Shown here piece by piece: positions 17,572-35,528 of a DNA stretch of 64,000 nucleotides (position 1 is the first letter of the stretch; each line of letters opens with the position of its first letter). Under the pieces are notes generated by a model, which saw nothing but the letters and a program-made list of their open reading frames with translations, made no database searches and had not been told where the DNA came from. The translations under genes and the position numbers were made by a program. Origin of the DNA: a virus; the IMG/VR virus record IMGVR_UViG_3300031251_000001, positions 1-64,000 of that record; one strand, written 5' to 3'.

Positions 17572-20500
17572 CTAGGCAGCGGCATACCACAGTGGTATAC
17601 GGTGCTGTTCGCAATCCTTTTCAGTAAACGGTTCTGACCAGCGTGTCGACACTTCGTGTGACATGGATAGATAATAGGGTCCCGTTCCAAGCGACTCACC
17701 GTGAAGGTCAGTCGGGTAGATGGGCACTTGCTTGGCCATGGCCCAGCGGACCAGGCCTGTCTCCGGATGAGCCAGGTAATCGACCAGGTCGTACGGTGCT
17801 TCGATCAAGAGAGCATCGTGGATGGCCAGCAGCATTTTGACTTCCTTCTCGATCCCGGCCTCACGCAGAGCGTAATAGAGGTTGGCCACGCCCCGGTTGA
17901 GGGCACCAGCCACCAGAGCCTGGATCGGGAAGTTCATCGCCTGGCGTTCGATGTCGCCTGCCTGCCGCTTGTCCATCGCTCGTGGGAAGCGACGGCCGCG
18001 ACCAAAGCAGGAGAACATGACGCCCTCTTCGACAGCGATGCGGCGGCACTCGCTGAAGAACGGATCGAGTTCCGGGTACAGCTCGTACACGGTATCGATC
18101 ACCTGCTGTGCTTCCTCCTGGGTGATGTTGACGCCCTGCTCTTTGACAGCGAAGGCGATAGCCTTGGCACCGCGACCATAGAACAAACCGAACACCACGC
18201 TCTTGGCGATATGACGCAGGTTCTCCGCGTCGACCGACTTGAGCCCCGCCTTGCTGTAATCGCACTCCAGTTTGAAAGCGATGACCGCGATCATGGAGTG
18301 GATGTCCAAGTAGTCAGGATGCTTGGGGATACCCGGTGTGTCGCCATCGGGCAGGGTGTTACGACGCGCATGGTCGATGAGCACCTTACACCCCGACATG
18401 ATGCCGGCACCGAACAGCTCCGCACCCTTATAGTCGTGCTCGATGAAGCACATGCCGGGACGGGCCACGAACATCGATCGCAGCTTCTTGTTGTAGATCC
18501 AATTGCCCAGAGCATCCTGGCCGAAGATCTTCTTGAAGTCCTTGTCGCGATTCTTTGACTGATTCTGCAAGTTGGGTCGGAAGGACTTCCAACGGCTGGT
18601 TTCAGCAAAAGGAATGAAGTGGGACTTCACGACATCATCGGCGTCGATGCAGGCAGGCAGACCCTTGTCGTAGACGTGGCCACCCGTTTCGAGATCAATC
18701 TTGTAAGTGCCATCCTTGTTGAGCTCAGGGGGCCTCAGCGTCTGCTTGAGGGCCTGATCAAGAAATCGATGGTTGCGGATGAGATTGATCTTGGGGGCAA
18801 CGTCAGGGTTCTCTTCTGCCAGGATCGCCAACACCTGCTTGTTGGTCGAGGGACTGCGGAACAACGTCTCCCCTCGCTCGACGACATCCTCCCAGCGCAT
18901 CGGTGGCTTGGAAGTATCGATGAGCGGCTCCAGCTCCAGGGAGATAGCTCCCTCGGGCCGCAGCGACAAGGACTCACCCGTCTCCGGGTCGAACTTGCCG
19001 TTGTAACGTGTCCCAAAGAGGATCTCTTTGATCTGGTCGGTTGACCGCACATTGAGACCTTCTCGTTTCACTTTCTTCTTGGTGACCTTGAGTCCCTTCT
19101 TGAGCATCTTGCGTTTAGTCACCAGGTACCAGCGGTCGGGCCAGTTGAATGCCGCTTTGGCCTCCGCCTCCTTCTTGTCTCGTCCTCCCATGAACAAGGT
19201 AGTTAACTCTGCCAGTCTTTGTCGGTCGACTTTGATGCCGGTGGACTGCATCTCCAGGATCGGGGGCAGGGTCGACATGCCCTCCCAGAATGGCTCCCAG
19301 ACGCAATAGCCGTCATAGTCACAGCTGAGTCTCTTCTCCAGCTCCTCAGCGGCACGCAGGGTGACGTCGGCGTCATAACAGCCGTAGCTGTCACGCACGT
19401 GGATGCCGTCCTCCTCCAGCTCACCGATGAGGATCTCGTCAGGACACTCACCGTAACCATCCAGAGCGGCTGCGGTGATCTTCATCTTCGTGCAGTAGTC
19501 ATCCTTCCACTCTTCGAGCTTGCCCTCCCAGCGTGGTGCGGTGGTGTACCGCATCCCCAGGGACTCCAAGCCCAGGAAGGCTGTCTCTTCGATGGCGTGG
19601 GCGGCGACAGCGATATCGAATCCACCCTTGCCGGCCCGACACTGCTGCCACGGCTCACGGCCTTTCTCGTCGACCTTGTAGGGCACGGCGAACTCAGGAC
19701 GCAAGTCGAGACCGAAGTGGACGAACCACTCCAAATCATTCACGAAGAACGCACCGACCGCCCGCAAGCCACGCATGAAGTCTTTGAGTAGGCGGAACAA
19801 CCGTTTGACGGCCGGCCTACCGTACTTGTCGACGAAGGCGACGCCGCCACCCTGGTGGGTGAGCTTGAAACAGACAGCGGTCTTAAAGGCCCAGGACATC
19901 TGCACGGTCCGCAGGTAGGCACCTTTGTCGGTGGGGTGTTGTCCCTGCCACTCAGCATCCCATGCCACCATCCGTTTCTTCCGCCGCTTCATGGTGGCTT
20001 TAGCTTCTTTGACGATCTCGATCGCGTGCTCCAGGGTGGTGCACATACGGTGATCGATATCGTCTTCACGCTGGGTGCCGTCGCCGCTGGTGAGGAGGTA
20101 ACGGAACCGGCCCATGCCGCGCTCGAGTTGTCGCTTGCAGGCCACATCGGAGATAGCCTGCACGGGATGCAGAACCGTCATCACCGAAGCGGTGCGATCC
20201 TCGGCCTCATCGGGACAGCGATAGCTGATCTTCTCGATGCGACCCTCCATGTAGCCGACGCCGAACTTGCTGTCATTGAGTACCAGCTTGCTGGCGTCCG
20301 CCCCCAGGCACAGGATGTACTTGGGTTTGACAAGGAGGATCTCCATCCACAGGAGCGGCAGACAATCGGCTATCCACTTGGCCTTGGCCTTCTTGCTGCC
20401 GTCGGGTGGCACGAACTTGAGGATGTTGGTGACGTACCACTTGTTGGCCCCTTTGATGCGCAGGTCCCGAATGGTGTTGAGGAAGACCTCCCCCGTCTTA

Positions 20501-20883
20501 CCCATGAGGTTACGACGATAGGCTTGTTCCTCTTCCGCCGGCATCTTGCCGATGACCATGACCTCGGCTTCGTGAGGACCATCCACCGGCGGTACGACGT
20601 AGTCGCTGTCCAGCATCGACTTAGCCAGGTGCTCACTGTGCTGACCCCAGATGTGCCCAGGAATGAAAGAGGCCGGCAGATAGACGCCAGGCTTGGCTTC
20701 CACCATGAGCTCGGTACCGGGTACACGCAAGGCCTGGTCGTAGAGCCTGCTCATCTCCTCGGTGTAGAGCACCGGTTCTTTCTTTTTGGTTTTGGCGGTC
20801 TCCACTCCCATTGCCAGGTTGGCAGCGCGAATGAAGTCAGGCCCCGAGACGGGGATGCCAGGTGAGTTCCAGGGATAGATCAT
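17572..20883 (-). CDS. family A DNA polymerase with N-terminal UDG-like domain
   Basis: 1103 residues in three parts. Residues about 100-260 resemble the uracil-DNA glycosylase fold (VMVIGKMPAEEEQ at 109-120; LHPVQ at 238-242), as in SPO1-type phage polymerases; the usual GEAPG motif is altered to GKMPA. Residues about 300-520 are a 3'-5' exonuclease with AWDAEW (D309, E311), VNDLEWF (382-387) and CYDAD (502-506). Residues about 540-1103 are the polymerase: motif A HDYKGAEL (816-823), motif B RHIAKSVVFGLFYG (890-903), motif C AIHDALLIE (1020-1028). All catalytic acids and the O-helix R, K and Y are present. The ATG overlaps the primase stop (ATGA) and follows the palindrome at 20898 by 14 nt. 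Confidence 0.9.
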   Translation of the reverse strand: MIYPWNSPGIPVSGPDFIRAANLAMGVETAKTKKKEPVLYTEEMSRLYDQALRVPGTELMVEAKPGVYLPASFIPGHIWGQHSEHLAKSMLDSDYVVPPVDGPHEAEVMVIGKMPAEEEQAYRRNLMGKTGEVFLNTIRDLRIKGANKWYVTNILKFVPPDGSKKAKAKWIADCLPLLWMEILLVKPKYILCLGADASKLVLNDSKFGVGYMEGRIEKISYRCPDEAEDRTASVMTVLHPVQAISDVACKRQLERGMGRFRYLLTSGDGTQREDDIDHRMCTTLEHAIEIVKEAKATMKRRKKRMVAWDAEWQGQHPTDKGAYLRTVQMSWAFKTAVCFKLTHQGGGVAFVDKYGRPAVKRLFRLLKDFMRGLRAVGAFFVNDLEWFVHFGLDLRPEFAVPYKVDEKGREPWQQCRAGKGGFDIAVAAHAIEETAFLGLESLGMRYTTAPRWEGKLEEWKDDYCTKMKITAAALDGYGECPDEILIGELEEDGIHVRDSYGCYDADVTLRAAEELEKRLSCDYDGYCVWEPFWEGMSTLPPILEMQSTGIKVDRQRLAELTTLFMGGRDKKEAEAKAAFNWPDRWYLVTKRKMLKKGLKVTKKKVKREGLNVRSTDQIKEILFGTRYNGKFDPETGESLSLRPEGAISLELEPLIDTSKPPMRWEDVVERGETLFRSPSTNKQVLAILAEENPDVAPKINLIRNHRFLDQALKQTLRPPELNKDGTYKIDLETGGHVYDKGLPACIDADDVVKSHFIPFAETSRWKSFRPNLQNQSKNRDKDFKKIFGQDALGNWIYNKKLRSMFVARPGMCFIEHDYKGAELFGAGIMSGCKVLIDHARRNTLPDGDTPGIPKHPDYLDIHSMIAVIAFKLECDYSKAGLKSVDAENLRHIAKSVVFGLFYGRGAKAIAFAVKEQGVNITQEEAQQVIDTVYELYPELDPFFSECRRIAVEEGVMFSCFGRGRRFPRAMDKRQAGDIERQAMNFPIQALVAGALNRGVANLYYALREAGIEKEVKMLLAIHDALLIEAPYDLVDYLAHPETGLVRWAMAKQVPIYPTDLHGESLGTGPYYLSMSHEVSTRWSEPFTEKDCEQHRIPLWYAAA

Positions 20884-28888: not shown

Positions 28889-31003
28889 TTACCCGATCTC
28901 AATGATCCGATCGAACGAAGGTTTGAGCAACGGATCATGGGTGATGACGATCATCTGCAGCCGATTGCGCAGCGACCGGGAGACAGCCTTCAGTACCTCA
29001 CCCAGGTAACGGCGATTCCGCTCATCCAGGTTGGCGGTCGGCTCATCCAGGACCAGCATGCCGATGTCACCGGCAAACAGTTCCAGCTGGGCCAGCCAGA
29101 AACAGATGGAGAGCACCACACGCTGACCGATCGACAGACGACTGATGGATCTCTCGCTCCGATCAGGCATGGAGATCATCAAATCGAGATCGTCGGTGGG
29201 TCGGCACGAGAAGCCGCCGCCGAAGCGTTTGATATTCCGGTTGATCGCCGGCTCGAGCTCCTTGAGGCAAGCACGCGAGACTCGTAGCGGCATGCGGGTG
29301 GGGTGCAGCAGCTCCGAGGCCTTCTCAATGACATCGATACGCTGCAGCATGACCAGGCTGTCTTCGATCTTCTTAGCGTTGGAAGCTAGCTCGGCCTGCT
29401 GCCGCTCCACCGACTCCTTGACCTGCTTGATCTTGCCCTTGAGCTCCGACGCCTTGGCACGCAGCCTGTCCTGGGCTTCCAGGTCAGCACTGCGGTCCTC
29501 GCCCGGTTTATCGATCTCGGTCAGAGTAGCTCGGCGAGCCCGATAGGTGGTGATCTGTTCCTTGAGCGAGGGAACAGCGGCCCGGTAGTCAGCCCTGGCG
29601 GCACGCAGCAGCTTCACCGTGGCATTACGCTTACGGATCTTGATGCGGGCCTGCTCAATGCGTTTGATGCGTTCTGCCTTCTCGGTGAGCTCCGGCTGCT
29701 CCACTGCCTTGCCCAGCGTTGCCTTGGCGCCGGCGATCTTGCTGGTCAGGTTGGCCTTCTCGGTGGTGGCAGCGTCGAATGCTTCCTTCTTGGCCTTGAG
29801 GTCCTTGGCCTTGGCCCGCAAGTCGAGCAGCTGGGCGTCGTAGGTATCCCGCTGCTTGCTCTTGTCGGTGATCATCTTCTGGATGTCATCAATAGCCTGG
29901 TTGCAGGTAGGGCACTTGGATTTACCCTTGAACTTGGCCATCGACTCAATCCAGGCGTGCAGCTCATCACGCTTGCCGGCGAGCACCTTACCATCGGTAG
30001 TGATCTTGAGCCACTCCTCCTGATCAAAGGGTTTGATCACGATGGTCTTGAGCTTGGACTCGTCAGCATCGATCTTGTTCTTCTTGGCCTTGTACTCGGC
30101 GTACTTGGCGATGTCGATCGCATATTGACGGATGGCCTGCAGATCAGCAGCGGCAACGGCCACGTACTTCTTGGTTGCTGCCAGATCCACCCGCCACTGC
30201 GCCTCACCCGTGAGTACCTTCTTGGCTGTCTCGATCTTCTCCCGTGACTCTTTCCCGCGTTTGGCGATCTTCTTGATGTCAGCGATAATTGAGTTACGCT
30301 GAGCCACCAGAGCCACCGAGTCACGCAGAACCTCATACTCTTCGTTAGTCAGGCACTGCACGAGGATGGCGTCGCGTTGTGTCTCGATCTCGACACGTTC
30401 CGCCCTGAGACGTTCGATCTCGGCGTTGATCTCGCCGCTCTTGTCTTGCACCGTGAGCTGAGTCTTCTTGAAGCCGGCGAAGATCCCCAGCGTCTTCTTG
30501 GCCAGAGCCAGGTCACCGAGCATCAACATTTTCTGGTAAACGGTTGCTCGGTCAGTGGACGTCGCGGAGAACAGAGCGTCGATTGCATTCTGTCGGAGAA
30601 AGACGGCATTAAGAACATCGGATGAGATCCCGAGGGATTCCATCCGTGCTTTAACTCCATCCCAACCCTCGACGTACTTCCCATCCGCTCCAGTGATGGT
30701 GATCTTGTCAGGGCGGATCGAATTGAGAAGGTGAACCTGTTGCTCGGCATGCTGAAAGGTGATGTCGACATAAGCCTTGTCCTTCTCCTTGGCCTTGTCC
30801 CGGATCACCTTCTTCTTGGTGTCGGCGATGCCGGTCCAGCGGTTAGTCATAGCGGAAACGATCGCTTCAGTCAGCGTCGTCTTGCCGCAGCCGTTCGGGC
30901 CGAAGATCCCGATGGTACCACGAGGAAGAGGATTCTTCTCGGTACCAAAGTGGATCTCCTTGTGCGGCCCGATATTGAAAAGTGTAGCGTACTTTAGGTA
31001 CAT
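28889..31003 (-). CDS. SbcC/Rad50-like (T4 gp46) ATPase subunit
   Basis: 704 residues. Walker A GIFGPNGCGKTTL (about 32-44), long heptad coiled coils on both sides of a zinc hook KCPTCNQ (about residues 362-368), ABC signature SISRLSIGQRVVLSI near 620 and Walker B MLVLDEPTANLDERN near 650, then a D-loop/His switch region ending VITHDP. With the SbcD-like partner it forms the recombination nuclease that processes DNA ends for recombination-dependent replication. Shorter than bacterial SbcC (about 1050) but close to phage gp46 in length. The start lies within the last codons of the SbcD gene. Confidence 0.9.
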   Translation of the reverse strand: MYLKYATLFNIGPHKEIHFGTEKNPLPRGTIGIFGPNGCGKTTLTEAIVSAMTNRWTGIADTKKKVIRDKAKEKDKAYVDITFQHAEQQVHLLNSIRPDKITITGADGKYVEGWDGVKARMESLGISSDVLNAVFLRQNAIDALFSATSTDRATVYQKMLMLGDLALAKKTLGIFAGFKKTQLTVQDKSGEINAEIERLRAERVEIETQRDAILVQCLTNEEYEVLRDSVALVAQRNSIIADIKKIAKRGKESREKIETAKKVLTGEAQWRVDLAATKKYVAVAAADLQAIRQYAIDIAKYAEYKAKKNKIDADESKLKTIVIKPFDQEEWLKITTDGKVLAGKRDELHAWIESMAKFKGKSKCPTCNQAIDDIQKMITDKSKQRDTYDAQLLDLRAKAKDLKAKKEAFDAATTEKANLTSKIAGAKATLGKAVEQPELTEKAERIKRIEQARIKIRKRNATVKLLRAARADYRAAVPSLKEQITTYRARRATLTEIDKPGEDRSADLEAQDRLRAKASELKGKIKQVKESVERQQAELASNAKKIEDSLVMLQRIDVIEKASELLHPTRMPLRVSRACLKELEPAINRNIKRFGGGFSCRPTDDLDLMISMPDRSERSISRLSIGQRVVLSICFWLAQLELFAGDIGMLVLDEPTANLDERNRRYLGEVLKAVSRSLRNRLQMIVITHDPLLKPSFDRIIEIG

Positions 31004-32124
31004 GATCCCGTCTCAAGATAGCGGTTGAGGAATGGTTTAAGTTTCTCTTCGGTTCGCTCCTTGCGGGCGATCAGCTCCATGACGAGCATGCGGACCTCGG
31101 GGTCTTCCGTCTCCTCGTTCAGAGCCTGACGGATTGCCTCGGCGGCCTTACTCTTCCACTCGACTGAGGTGACAAACTCCCCTTCAGGGACGTCAGCATA
31201 GAAGTAGCGGAAGAAGAGGTGTGCCCGGTCTTGAGCGATCGCGCGAACACGATCCTCGAAGTCTTCGAGCGCTTTGTCATACTCCACGTCCACAATCGGC
31301 TTCTCGATATCCTTGTCATAGGTAAACCTCCGTTTGGGTGCGGTGTAGTTGCCTAAGTCGAGGTGTAGCTTCTTGAGGGCGTCGATAGCGTGCTGCTCGG
31401 TGACGCAGCGACGCAGGCGGATAACGTGGCGGGTACGCAGCTTGATCTTCGTGAACAGGTTCTTCTCGAAGAGCCAGACGTGTTTGACCTCCTCCTCAGC
31501 GATGTCCTGCATGCAGGTCGTGCCGGGGGAGAGGAACTTGAGGATGTCCTTACCCTTGCCGCCGCGATCGATCTTCTTGAGGAGGTGGCGGTGGATGTCA
31601 CCGGAGACCACCGTCTTGATGTTGGTGGGGACGTTAACCAGACTGTCATCCGGCTCAGGACCGAAGGGCTTGTGCTCGGCCCACATCTGGTGGCAGACCA
31701 GCAGGTTGGCTGCCGACGGAATAGACTCGAGCGCGCCACGCAGGAGCTCGGTATCGGTGTAATCGAGCCCATAGAGGGTAACCCCGCCGTCGCACTTGAT
31801 CAGCTGACGATGGAGGTGGGTGCCGCCGCAAAGCGTGGCCCAGGGCGGATCACTGACCTCATGCTGACCCTGGACGAAGTAAACGCACTCCTGGTCTCCA
31901 GTGATGCTGCGGCAACTGGCGATGAACCTGCGCAGCTCCTTGAAGGCTCGGCTGTTGATACGCTTGCGGTCGATGACGTCGCCGCACAGAACGATCTTCT
32001 TGACCTTCTTACGTTTGACGATGGCCAGGATCTGGGGCAACACCTGGTAGGCATCAAAGAACAAGGGACGAGAGGGCCAACACGCATCATCAAGGTGCAT
32101 GTCGCCGACGAATAAGATGGACAT
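30994..32124 (-). CDS. SbcD/Mre11-like (T4 gp47) nuclease subunit
   Basis: 376 residues from MSILFVGDMHLDDACW. Metallophosphoesterase motifs: GDMHLDD (D-x-H), VLCGDVIDRK (GDxxD), VQGQHEVSD (usually GNHD/E; the Asn is replaced by Gln), LLVCHQMW (His) and VSGDIHRHL (usually GHxH). Cuts DNA as the nuclease half of the SbcCD complex encoded with the next gene. The start is chosen for GGAG upstream; a longer frame exists but would read through the regulatory palindrome at 32138, which lies 13 nt before this ATG. Confidence 0.85.
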   Translation of the reverse strand: MSILFVGDMHLDDACWPSRPLFFDAYQVLPQILAIVKRKKVKKIVLCGDVIDRKRINSRAFKELRRFIASCRSITGDQECVYFVQGQHEVSDPPWATLCGGTHLHRQLIKCDGGVTLYGLDYTDTELLRGALESIPSAANLLVCHQMWAEHKPFGPEPDDSLVNVPTNIKTVVSGDIHRHLLKKIDRGGKGKDILKFLSPGTTCMQDIAEEEVKHVWLFEKNLFTKIKLRTRHVIRLRRCVTEQHAIDALKKLHLDLGNYTAPKRRFTYDKDIEKPIVDVEYDKALEDFEDRVRAIAQDRAHLFFRYFYADVPEGEFVTSVEWKSKAAEAIRQALNEETEDPEVRMLVMELIARKERTEEKLKPFLNRYLETGSCT

Positions 32125-32137
32125 GGGGACTCCTATC

Positions 32138-32153
32138 CAAAATACGTATTTTG
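32138..32153. promoter_or_regulatory. 16-bp palindrome, copy 4
   Basis: Perfect copy within CCAAAATACGTATTTTGG, 13 nt before the SbcD start, in the short gap between it and the gene 32160-32477. Confidence 0.85.
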
Positions 32154-32159
32154 GATTGT

Positions 32160-32477
32160 TCAGACGTTGTAACCGAGCAGGAAGACGGTACGCCGCCACA
32201 GCTCCACCTGGTCAGCAGAGGAGTAGCGGGTCGAGAGCTCTTGCAGATTGCGGACGATGGGATGGATGCAGTAGAGATCCATCACCATGAGCAGCAGAGC
32301 GTTAAACACCCTACGTGCCTCACCCTCGAAGTTCTCCCCCACGTGCCAATAGATCGGGTGGGCACGCAGGTCATCCATTCCGAGGACTTTGATATTCTTA
32401 GGCCAGTCAAACGACGGCATCGCCGCGAGGGACAGGTCGTCATCCTCACGGGGTTCTTCTGGTTTGGGTTTACGCAT
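32160..32477 (-). CDS. hypothetical protein
   Basis: 105 residues. Acidic N-terminus (MRKPKPEEPREDDDLS), then a helical part (RRVFNALLLMVMDLYCIHPI). No family is recognised. It precedes the SbcD gene in the minus-strand run. Confidence 0.6.
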   Translation of the reverse strand: MRKPKPEEPREDDDLSLAAMPSFDWPKNIKVLGMDDLRAHPIYWHVGENFEGEARRVFNALLLMVMDLYCIHPIVRNLQELSTRYSSADQVELWRRTVFLLGYNV

Positions 32478-32482
32478 GGTGC

Positions 32483-32797
32483 CTATTGGACGACATAGAC
32501 ATTGCCGTGGCGGTAGTTGCCGGCGGCAATGCCTTCAGGGTCAAGAGGGGGATTGAAGCGTTCCGAGTCGATAGTGACGTGAGCGGGGGTGAGCCCGTGC
32601 GGCGCCTGGAACTGGAACCTATGTTTATTCTTCTTCTTGGCTTCGCTCAAGTTGAGTTCGTCGGTAATCAGCTTGTCGAGCTGCGTTCGACTGAGCAGAG
32701 AAACGATGGTCCGGTCCTGAAACTGATACACGTAGAGGCGCCTTCTTGTCAGCCACAACAGGAGTGACAGGACGGCGAGGAGCGTCTTGCTGATCAT
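32483..32797 (-). CDS. small protein with N-terminal membrane segment
   Basis: 104 residues starting MISKTLLAVLSLLLWLTRRR: a hydrophobic helix followed by Arg residues, which fits an N-terminal membrane anchor with a cytoplasmic remainder. A Lys-rich stretch (SEAKKKNKHRFQFQ) follows. AAGGA lies 6 nt before the ATG. It overlaps the upstream gene by 173 nt in another frame. Third-position GC is higher in this frame over the overlap, so this frame looks like the one under coding selection there. Confidence 0.6.
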   Translation of the reverse strand: MISKTLLAVLSLLLWLTRRRLYVYQFQDRTIVSLLSRTQLDKLITDELNLSEAKKKNKHRFQFQAPHGLTPAHVTIDSERFNPPLDPEGIAAGNYRHGNVYVVQ

Positions 32798-33677
32798 GCG
32801 TGTCCTTCCTTAGACAGCCGTAGGTAGCGTAGAGGCGGCGACCAGCCAGTGCTTTATTGGCGTCCGGTAGGACATCCCAACTGTATCGCCTGTACCACGA
32901 TTTAGGGATTCTCGTGGCAATGGCTACTTGCTGAGCCAGCGATGCAGGATCAACCACCATCGCAGCTGAAGTCCTGGTCACGTGCATACTATCCCGCACA
33001 GAGACCAACTTTATCAGATCATCCACTTCGCTGCGAGGCAGAATCACGAGAGAGCTGGTAACAGGAGTGATCCGGTAGACTTGCTCGTCACGAAGTCGGG
33101 TGCTGAGACCTTTGGCTATTTGCACTTTGAAGCTGTCGCATTTGATGCTGCCTAACCAATTAAAGTGTTTGTACTGATCCATGGATTGGTTGAAAAACCA
33201 CGACCAGTAATTGAACTCGTTGTTCAATCGATGTGTCACGATCAAAGGGAGGTCTACAGCGAAAGGATCATGTGCTCTTTTGATAACACAAATGGATAGG
33301 TCCTCCCGTCCAGGCAGTGGGTTACCGTTCTCGTTGAGAAGGTACTCAAATACTTTCTTGAACGTCGGGATGGTCCTGGTTCTCACCCAGCAATAGGGAC
33401 ACCAATAGTGCAGACGGCAGCTTCGCTTCACGGTGCCAGTTGCCAAACGAACGCCGATAGGAAAGCAATCACTGAGGAGATCCACGGCTCGGTCCGCTGT
33501 GATGGATTTTTTGCCGTTACAGATCTCCTCTTTGCCGTAGCTACCCATGCGACGGATGGCAATCTGCTTGGGAAGGTAGCTAGGGCTGTGTGCCATTTCT
33601 TTGCGGGGATTGAGAAAGGGATAAATGGCAGAATGGATGCACCGAAGAAGGTGCGAAAAGACGGCCGGAGTGTGCAT
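32625..33677 (-). CDS. hypothetical protein with Cys pair
   Basis: 350 residues. It has CRLHYWCPYCWVRTRT near residue 105 (possible zinc knuckle), followed by mixed alpha/beta with many basic and aromatic residues. No family is recognised. The last 57 residues overlap the next gene in another frame and look low in coding bias, so the true end may be different (frameshift) or overprinted. AGGA lies 9 nt before the first ATG; Mets at residues 28 and 44 are alternatives. It follows the largest non-coding gap of the window. Confidence 0.55.
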   Translation of the reverse strand: MHTPAVFSHLLRCIHSAIYPFLNPRKEMAHSPSYLPKQIAIRRMGSYGKEEICNGKKSITADRAVDLLSDCFPIGVRLATGTVKRSCRLHYWCPYCWVRTRTIPTFKKVFEYLLNENGNPLPGREDLSICVIKRAHDPFAVDLPLIVTHRLNNEFNYWSWFFNQSMDQYKHFNWLGSIKCDSFKVQIAKGLSTRLRDEQVYRITPVTSSLVILPRSEVDDLIKLVSVRDSMHVTRTSAAMVVDPASLAQQVAIATRIPKSWYRRYSWDVLPDANKALAGRRLYATYGCLRKDTHDQQDAPRRPVTPVVADKKAPLRVSVSGPDHRFSAQSNAARQADYRRTQLERSQEEE

Positions 33678-33744: not shown

Positions 33745-33760
33745 CAAAATACGGATTTTG
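33745..33760. promoter_or_regulatory. 16-bp palindrome, variant copy
   Basis: CAAAATACGGATTTTG, one mismatch from the consensus. The change makes a new nested inverted repeat with upstream AAAATCC (AAAATCC...GGATTTT). It lies 67 nt before the gene starting at 33677, further than the other upstream copies. Confidence 0.65.
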
Positions 33761-33919: not shown

Positions 33920-33940
33920 TATTATTACTACATAATAATA
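33920..33940. repeat. AT inverted repeat
   Basis: TATTATTA, CTACA, TAATAATA: a perfect 8-bp AT stem in the AT-rich gap; easily unwound DNA. Confidence 0.6.
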
Positions 33941-33951
33941 CGAACACCTTC

Positions 33952-33979
33952 GTGCGTCCCCTTGGAAAGGGGGACGCAC
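33952..33979 (-). terminator. hairpin after alpha-CTD-like gene
   Basis: GTGCGTCCCC and GGGGACGCAC, 10-bp stem with an 8-nt loop, about 45 nt past the stop of gene 34024-34398. No U-tract follows, so this is a terminator candidate of moderate strength. Confidence 0.6.
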
Positions 33980-34023: not shown

Positions 34024-34398
34024 CTAGATGGCAGGGTCGGGCTTGTTCGACTTGAGCTTGGCAGCGCGAAGCTCGGCAGCTGCCTTGGCCTGGATGCGTA
34101 ACTTCTTCACTTGCCCGACTCGCACCGTGACGGGGATGTTGCGCTTAGCACAATACTTCTTAAACGACTGGATCACCTTCAGGCTGATCTGCTTCACCTT
34201 GGCCAGCACCTCGGAGGAGGTACTAGCCAGGTCCTCGACTGTCACGATGCCCAGGACCTCCAGAGGCTTGACGATCTTGGAGTTGATACGCAGCTCAGCC
34301 AGGGGCTTCTTCTCCACCGGGTCAGGGATGGCGACCAGGTGAGTCACCCGCTTGCCGATGCGTGGCTCCGGGACGGTAGGTATCCAACTGCGCTTCAT
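34024..34398 (-). CDS. RNA polymerase alpha C-terminal domain-like protein
   Basis: 124 residues. Residues about 30-92 (PLAELRINSKIVKPLEVLGI, VTVEDLASTSSEVLAKVKQI, SLKVIQSFKKYCAKRNIPV) follow the alpha-CTD order: L-x2-L, hydrophobic helix, GI-x-TV-x-DL, then L-x-K...K-x-L/V-x2-I helix-hairpin-helix. In bacteria this domain binds UP-element DNA and activators. Here it stands alone with a basic C-terminal extension (KKLRIQAKAAAELRAAKLK), so it could recruit or compete with host polymerase. A plain helix-hairpin-helix DNA-binding protein is the alternative. The palindrome at 34418 lies 19 nt upstream. Confidence 0.55.
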   Translation of the reverse strand: MKRSWIPTVPEPRIGKRVTHLVAIPDPVEKKPLAELRINSKIVKPLEVLGIVTVEDLASTSSEVLAKVKQISLKVIQSFKKYCAKRNIPVTVRVGQVKKLRIQAKAAAELRAAKLKSNKPDPAI

Positions 34399-34435: not shown

Positions 34436-34897
34436 TTAACCGAACGTGTAGGTTACGCCTAGCCCAACCCCACGCGACCTCTGCCTCCCTTTCAAGCCCC
34501 TCGACTTGAGCAGGTGCTGCGCAGCCAGTGCTTCCTCGGGGACGCAAGCACGGACGGCATAGCGACGACCAGAGAGGCCACGACTGACCGAGTCGAGAAG
34601 GATGGTAGCGATGCCCTGGCGGCGGTACTCGGGGTGGACGCCTACCCACTTGACCAGCATGCGACCACTGGCACGACTGCGACGACAGAGGATGGCACCA
34701 CGGTACTGACCGTCGACCGTGGCGGCGAGGATCATGTGGTTACGCAGCAACCGGGAGACGTCGCTGCTGGAGAGGTTGGCCCTGCGGGTGGTAGCACGGT
34801 CAAGGTTAAAGAGATCAGCGACGGCGAAACAATCAGACTCTTCGGGAATGGCCAGGGTGACGACCTGGCCGGTTTTAGTGTGGCGGGTGAATAGCAT
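34436..34897 (-). CDS. GNAT-family acetyltransferase
   Basis: 153 residues. The GNAT core is clear: VKWVGVHPEYRRQGIATILL (motif A, acetyl-CoA loop R-R-x-G-I-A) near residue 85, preceded by strands GAILCRRSRASGRM and followed by AVRACVPEEALAAQHLLKSR (motif B). The start is taken at the ATG with AGGA 8 nt upstream; another ATG lies 9 nt earlier. The substrate is unknown; phage GNATs acetylate proteins or small molecules, or modify DNA bases (Mom). It lies between the RNase H and alpha-CTD-like genes. Confidence 0.75.
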   Translation of the reverse strand: MLFTRHTKTGQVVTLAIPEESDCFAVADLFNLDRATTRRANLSSSDVSRLLRNHMILAATVDGQYRGAILCRRSRASGRMLVKWVGVHPEYRRQGIATILLDSVSRGLSGRRYAVRACVPEEALAAQHLLKSRGLKGRQRSRGVGLGVTYTFG

Positions 34898-34898
34898 G

Positions 34899-35528
34899 CT
34901 AACCATCCTGGTTGTAGTTCCTTGGTTGATAGAGTTCTTCCTCGAAGACCTTGCCGAGTCGAATGTTGGAGGCTCGGGCCATCTTGCTGCAGACGTCGGC
35001 GAGGGAGTTGAGTTCGCTGGTCTCGCGTTTGAGCCAGTGCCAGTGGACGAGGAGGCCCTGACGTTTCATCATTTCGATCGCGTCCCAGATCATCATGTTG
35101 GCGGTACGGGCGCTCTTCCGCTCGGAAGCACGCTGAACGTATTCACTGTCAGTGACGATGTGGACATGGCGAAACTCAATTTTTCCGCCATTATTTTTCC
35201 GTTCCTCCAGGACACGGCTGAGAATCTCCGCCAGCGGGGCGAAGTAGGCCATGAGCTCGGCGAAATTGATGCTGCAACGGTTGATGGAGCCGAAGAACTG
35301 GAGGCGTTCCCGGTTGGCGATGTCGATCAGCGTGCAGTACCAGCCGGAGGGCAGGTGACGTTGGCTGCCGCTACCGTCCCCCACGAGCACGTAATCTGCT
35401 TTCTCAATTGCGAGCTTCTCCAGCAGGGCTGACAGCTTCTGCTTTCCCAGGGTGGGGTTCCAGGTAGGCTTTTTGGCCTTGTTCTTTTCCATGCGTAGCC
35501 GTCTCCTCTGTTTGTCGTCGGGGTGCAT
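34899..35528 (-). CDS. rnhA: ribonuclease HI
   Basis: 209 residues. Type I RNase H motifs: ADYVLVGDGSGSQ (first Asp), SINFAELMAYFAPLAEIL (Glu), HVHIVTDSEYVQRA (Asp) and SLADVCSKMAR (last Asp). It removes RNA primers or RNA-DNA hybrids during replication. The start is placed at MHPDDKQRRR because AGGAGG lies 6 nt before it; MEKNKAKK 12 residues on is an alternative. The 5' part overlaps the upstream gene by 125 nt. Confidence 0.8.
   Translation of the reverse strand: MHPDDKQRRRLRMEKNKAKKPTWNPTLGKQKLSALLEKLAIEKADYVLVGDGSGSQRHLPSGWYCTLIDIANRERLQFFGSINRCSINFAELMAYFAPLAEILSRVLEERKNNGGKIEFRHVHIVTDSEYVQRASERKSARTANMMIWDAIEMMKRQGLLVHWHWLKRETSELNSLADVCSKMARASNIRLGKVFEEELYQPRNYNQDG

Follow-up and report, generated by a model that had tools for sequence, protein, structure and literature searches.

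A stand-alone protein resembling the C-terminal domain of the RNA polymerase alpha subunit in a bacterial giant virus

The DNA analysed here (the window, 64,000 nt) is part of a 214,229-bp record of a bacterial giant virus, and carries a gene whose small and strongly basic product resembles the C-terminal domain of the RNA polymerase alpha subunit (alpha-CTD) more closely than can be expected by chance. Sequence comparisons support alpha-CTD as its nearest relative. Such a detached domain in a phage that encodes its own RNA polymerase is a variant of the stand-alone phage alpha-CTDs, a kind of protein that is already known, since Bacillus phage Goe8, Microbacterium phage Mazun and other isolates carry such proteins. 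As to its function, we tentatively suggest a degenerate, basic, alpha-CTD-derived DNA-binding protein that would act in trans on transcription, although we would stop a little short of calling this probable. The features on which the analysis is based are listed in the table.

Features in and around the gene for the alpha-CTD-like protein (window numbering, unless marked as record positions)
Feature	Position	Strand	Basis
Alpha-CTD-like protein, stand-alone, 124 aa, pI 10.4	34024..34398	-	ORF list, coding score, codon adaptation, profile and alignment matches
Alpha-CTD-like domain, residues 26-94	34117..34323	-	alignment without gaps to Salmonella RpoA, starting at its residue 250
Basic C-terminal tail, residues 91-124, net +7	34027..34128	-	charge count
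Strong hairpin 3' of the gene, stem of 10 bp, no T-run	33952..33979	-	folding
16-bp palindrome CAAAATACGTATTTTG, 19 nt 5' of the ATG, right after the GNAT stop codon	34418..34433	.	exact repeat count
GNAT acetyltransferase-like gene	34436..34906	-	Pfam Acetyltransf_1, 32 bits
Sigma factor of the phage, 208 aa	26732..27358	-	sigma regions 2 and 4
Beta, intein-like insertion and N-terminal part of beta'	record 102635-107659 (outside window)		1674-aa ORF, motifs RFGDKGVISKILP and NMDFDGD
Rest (C-part) of beta', then a long unrelated tail	record 96994-100695 (outside window)		second RNAP ORF

The gene and its expression signals

The open reading frame fills its interval on the minus strand exactly and is a real gene. 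Its coding score is +0.46 bits per codon, compared with -0.15 and -0.10 for two opposing ORFs, its codon adaptation (CAI) ranks third among 251 ORFs, and its ATG start codon has a GAGG Shine-Dalgarno sequence. The net charge of the whole protein is about +16. An earlier reading of the sequence (the original prediction) had described a 124-residue protein with a basic tail and without the N-terminal domain of alpha (alpha-NTD), and this description is borne out in full: there is no alpha-NTD in the ORF, and neither PF01000 nor PF01193 has a match anywhere in the record.

About 40 bases hold, in this order, the stop codon of the GNAT gene, the palindrome and the start codon of the alpha-CTD-like protein. 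On the 3' side, a stretch of 101 nt around the hairpin has a folding z-score of -5.3, and the hairpin is probably the end of a single-gene unit. The protein would then be expressed from a unit of its own and is probably abundant. An A/T palindrome, TATTATTACTACATAATAATA, adjoins the hairpin at 33920-33940.

The palindrome in the leader, CAAAATACGTATTTTG, belongs to a class that is found across the genome. There are 22 exact copies in the 214-kb record, where none is expected at that stringency, with a single near-copy at one mismatch and none at two or three. Apart from the copy upstream of the alpha-CTD-like gene, those in the window are at 486, 15540, 20899, 32139, 39033 and 49492, and 15 more lie elsewhere in the record. 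Thirteen of the 22 sit 9-25 nt before an ATG that has a Shine-Dalgarno-like stretch, all of them on the minus strand, and a few fall inside ORFs. The palindrome-bearing leaders contain no UP-like A+T-rich tract, their A+T fraction at -10 to -60 being 0.37-0.47 as against 0.42 for the genome, and no IMG/VR contig with both the palindrome and a Shine-Dalgarno sequence was found. The palindrome that was originally noted, as regulatory, upstream of the gene is indeed present, and it may be part of a promoter or an operator; its sole tie to the alpha-CTD-like protein is its presence in this leader.

Two other ORFs in the window deserve mention. The first (32625-33677, 350 aa), located just downstream of the alpha-CTD-like gene, differs from the other phage genes in codon use, is lower in G+C and has no Pfam match; the one-mismatch copy of the palindrome, at 33746, precedes it. 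The second (17572-20883, 1103 aa) encodes a family A DNA polymerase that carries a fused uracil-DNA glycosylase domain and for which no phage match was found at E 1e-20.

Resemblance to the alpha-subunit C-terminal domain

Individual searches give weak scores. The Pfam profile for alpha-CTD (RNA_pol_A_CTD, PF03118) matches the protein at 17.5 bits (E 0.0033), or 18.1 bits in a search of the whole record, both under the curated cut-off of 23.8 bits. RAD51D_N (18.2 bits, cut-off 27.3) and HHH_5 (15.5 bits, cut-off 27) likewise remain under their cut-offs, and HHH_2 is weak too. RpoA is the top match in NCBIfam (E 0.016), and RpoA chains take the first four places in a sequence search of the PDB (E 0.4-0.9); the NusA C-terminal repeat and the helix-hairpin-helix (HhH) of Pol iota/Pol Y are further weak matches.

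Weak as each score is alone, the resemblance is not due to chance, as demonstrated by three controls. The pairwise scores against RpoA of B. subtilis and E. coli were reached by none of 1000 shuffled sequences (z 7.7 and 6.7, respectively). An independent profile, generated from four phage alpha-CTDs and that of B. subtilis with the present protein left out, places it first among all ORFs (15.7 bits, E 0.0016), whereas the best of 2000 shuffles scores 6.0 bits. Finally, when PF03118 was scanned against 49 phage records, many of them fragments, the protein was a clear outlier (18.1 bits, next-best 12.3) and no clear relative of it emerged.

The main rival explanation is that the protein is a generic HhH protein, nucleoid-like or repair-associated, that binds DNA and looks like alpha-CTD through the shared HhH only. 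This explanation, which we consider somewhat unlikely, is favoured by the RAD51D_N score, which is as high as that of alpha-CTD, by the HHH_5, HHH_2, NusA and Pol iota/Pol Y matches, by the strongly basic character and probable abundance of the protein, and by the presence of SbcC/SbcD-like genes at 28889-32199. The best argument for alpha-CTD over a generic HhH protein is how far the match extends. The alignment with Salmonella RpoA covers residues 26-94 without a gap (15 of 69 identities), residues 26-100 align in the same way with Francisella RpoA, and Acinetobacter RpoA lies on a gapless diagonal as well, so that in three proteobacterial RpoA proteins the match spans the whole alpha-CTD, 69-75 residues. 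An entry motif, DP..(L)xP, is shared (DPVEKKPLAEL in the phage protein, DPILLRPVDDL in RpoA), and the C-terminal stretch matches as well. The N flank, the core and the C flank, all on one diagonal, each beat their own shuffles (p 0.0002-0.006; about 0.001-0.006 for each of the flanks, values that are somewhat optimistic because the diagonal was picked from the same sequences). Only RpoA matches extend into both flanks, those to other HhH proteins being limited to the core: the best RpoA match in the PDB covers residues 24-100 without a gap, and the Pol iota HhH covers 38-90.

The canonical contact residues are mostly lost. In E. coli numbering, those through which alpha-CTD touches UP elements and sigma are R265, N268, C269, G296, K298, S299, E302 and E261. 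As read off the alignments, the phage protein has K for R265, K for N268, P for C269, S for G296, V for S299, S for E302 and R for E261, and K298 is the sole one kept. HhH proteins use the glycine of the hairpin on DNA. This glycine is also absent, QIS standing where NLG is expected, a loss that counts against a generic HhH protein as well. The protein thus combines a colinear match to the full RpoA domain with the loss of the canonical contact residues; it has neither the hairpin glycine nor a score above the HHH_5 or RAD51D_N cut-off, and at only 124 aa, with no linked alpha-NTD, it is not a full RpoA subunit. The original statement that it follows the order of alpha-CTD holds insofar as the gapless full-domain match is above chance, and is weakened by the sub-threshold Pfam score and the equal one of RAD51D_N.

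Structure prediction by AlphaFold2 without an alignment gave pLDDT values of 43.9 for the whole protein and 65 for residues 26-96, too uncertain for the fold to be called. Foldseek and VIA-align comparisons with these low-confidence models as queries returned no significant match; Foldseek matches of the PFKFB type and similar ones were set aside because the underlying models are unreliable. From the alignments, we infer a strongly diverged alpha-CTD homologue with an HhH, SAM-like fold and a basic tail.

Clear stand-alone alpha-CTDs are found in several phage isolates, namely in Goe8 (c00050, 78 bits), Mazun (gp26, 50.5), Mycobacterium phage Marley1013 (gp51, 28.2) and Morganella phage Mecenats66 (ORF34, 24.6, with NinX). 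Like the present protein they are small and have an alpha-CTD and no alpha-NTD. In contrast to it, they pass the Pfam cut-off, retain the R..N and N-x-G landmarks for the most part and have other N-terminal parts, and in none of these phages was an RNA polymerase of its own demonstrated here. Among the papers searched, there was no study of a free phage alpha-CTD protein.

The phage polymerase, its sigma factor and the distribution of the protein

The phage has genes for a multisubunit RNA polymerase of its own, without alpha-NTD, of the lineage termed mReC (multi-subunit RNAP-encoding Caudovirales; PMC7481178). The intein-like insertion in the beta/beta' ORF comes after KGGYGG. Relatives of this polymerase are found in Salmonella phage Arash, in Vibrio phages D69, D181 and D148 and in 192 IMG/VR stretches. 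Arash and D69 share with the present phage a related beta/beta' polymerase (31% and 29-30%), sigma factors and TerL; they differ from it in that no relative of the alpha-CTD-like protein was found there. PF01193 has no match in 29 relatives.

A sigma factor of the phage itself was part of the original prediction and is present. It is short, and by eye its region 4 looks to be of the FliA/sigma-28 type. Sigma region 4 matches were obtained in 18 of the 30 records searched, 17 of these 18 being relatives. Purified Arash particles contain beta, beta' and sigma (PMC10585845). Because the present phage encodes its own beta and beta', and because the three proteins occur together in Arash virions, its sigma factor may serve the phage enzyme. 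The proposal that host polymerase is remodelled in two ways, by sigma and by the free alpha-CTD, had overlooked the phage polymerase, and it is undercut by this enzyme and by the possibility that sigma belongs to it.

Protein searches of phage isolates, plasmids, IMG/VR and GTDB contigs found no homologue of the alpha-CTD-like protein. Two matches in Saccharibacteria were rejected, for they are tyrosine recombinases in which the peptide KYCAKRNIP occurs by chance. Among 50 phage records with a related polymerase, protein searches likewise gave no homologue, which is only suggestive, since many of these records are incomplete and no positive control accompanied the search. The absence nevertheless speaks against the protein being a core part of the phage polymerase, as a core component would be expected to be conserved together with the mReC enzyme in the lineage.

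Possible roles in transcription

If the protein is a degenerate alpha-CTD derivative, it would most likely bind DNA with little preference for sequence, by means of its tail and of the positive charge of the whole protein, and would act in trans as a competitor or an adaptor for some usual contact partner of alpha-CTD. Competition at UP elements, recruitment from a DNA-bound position and adaptation of activators to phage promoters, as these actions were originally worded, are not supported: the protein has lost most UP-element contact residues, and the palindrome-bearing leaders lack A+T-rich tracts. A more specific form of the reading, in which a phage with an alpha-less polymerase uses a detached and re-shaped alpha-CTD as a DNA clamp or adaptor in trans, either recruiting the phage enzyme or stripping activators and UP function from the host enzyme, seems to us unlikely.

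A decoy directed against the host, in which free alpha-CTD competes with that of the host for UP elements, activators or sigma region 4 and thereby helps to shut off the host, perhaps together with the GNAT, is an improbable alternative. It is suggested by the stand-alone form of the domain and by the neighbouring gene, for Rac (LUZ19 Gp28) is a phage GNAT that triggers the loss of alpha-CTD from the host polymerase (PMC7552054). However, the DNA- and sigma-contact residues are not retained; the GNAT that adjoins the gene here has no detectable phage relative, and the LKA1 GNAT at the position corresponding to Rac causes no cleavage (PMC7552054). That the GNAT and the alpha-CTD-like protein form a Rac-like pair is speculation. 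Also rather improbable is an accessory of the phage polymerase, supplying the alpha-less enzyme with a free alpha-CTD in trans: such a role would suit a phage that has beta, beta' and sigma, lacks alpha-NTD and places palindromes of one class before this and other genes, but it is opposed by the failure to find the protein in the 50 records of the same polymerase lineage, by the position of the gene, which is not adjacent to the polymerase genes, and by the leaders without UP-like tracts.

If the protein were only a basic HhH protein that coats DNA, the finding would be an ordinary one. The beta/beta' gene with its intein and the 22 identical copies of the palindrome may be of no less interest. 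If, on the other hand, the protein works in transcription, it would be an example of alpha-CTD acting apart from the rest of alpha, and this in a phage with an alpha-less polymerase and a sigma factor of its own. This would open the way to the question of how mReC polymerases, which are known almost only from sequence, choose their promoters, and of how the host enzyme is silenced or exploited by phages of this type.
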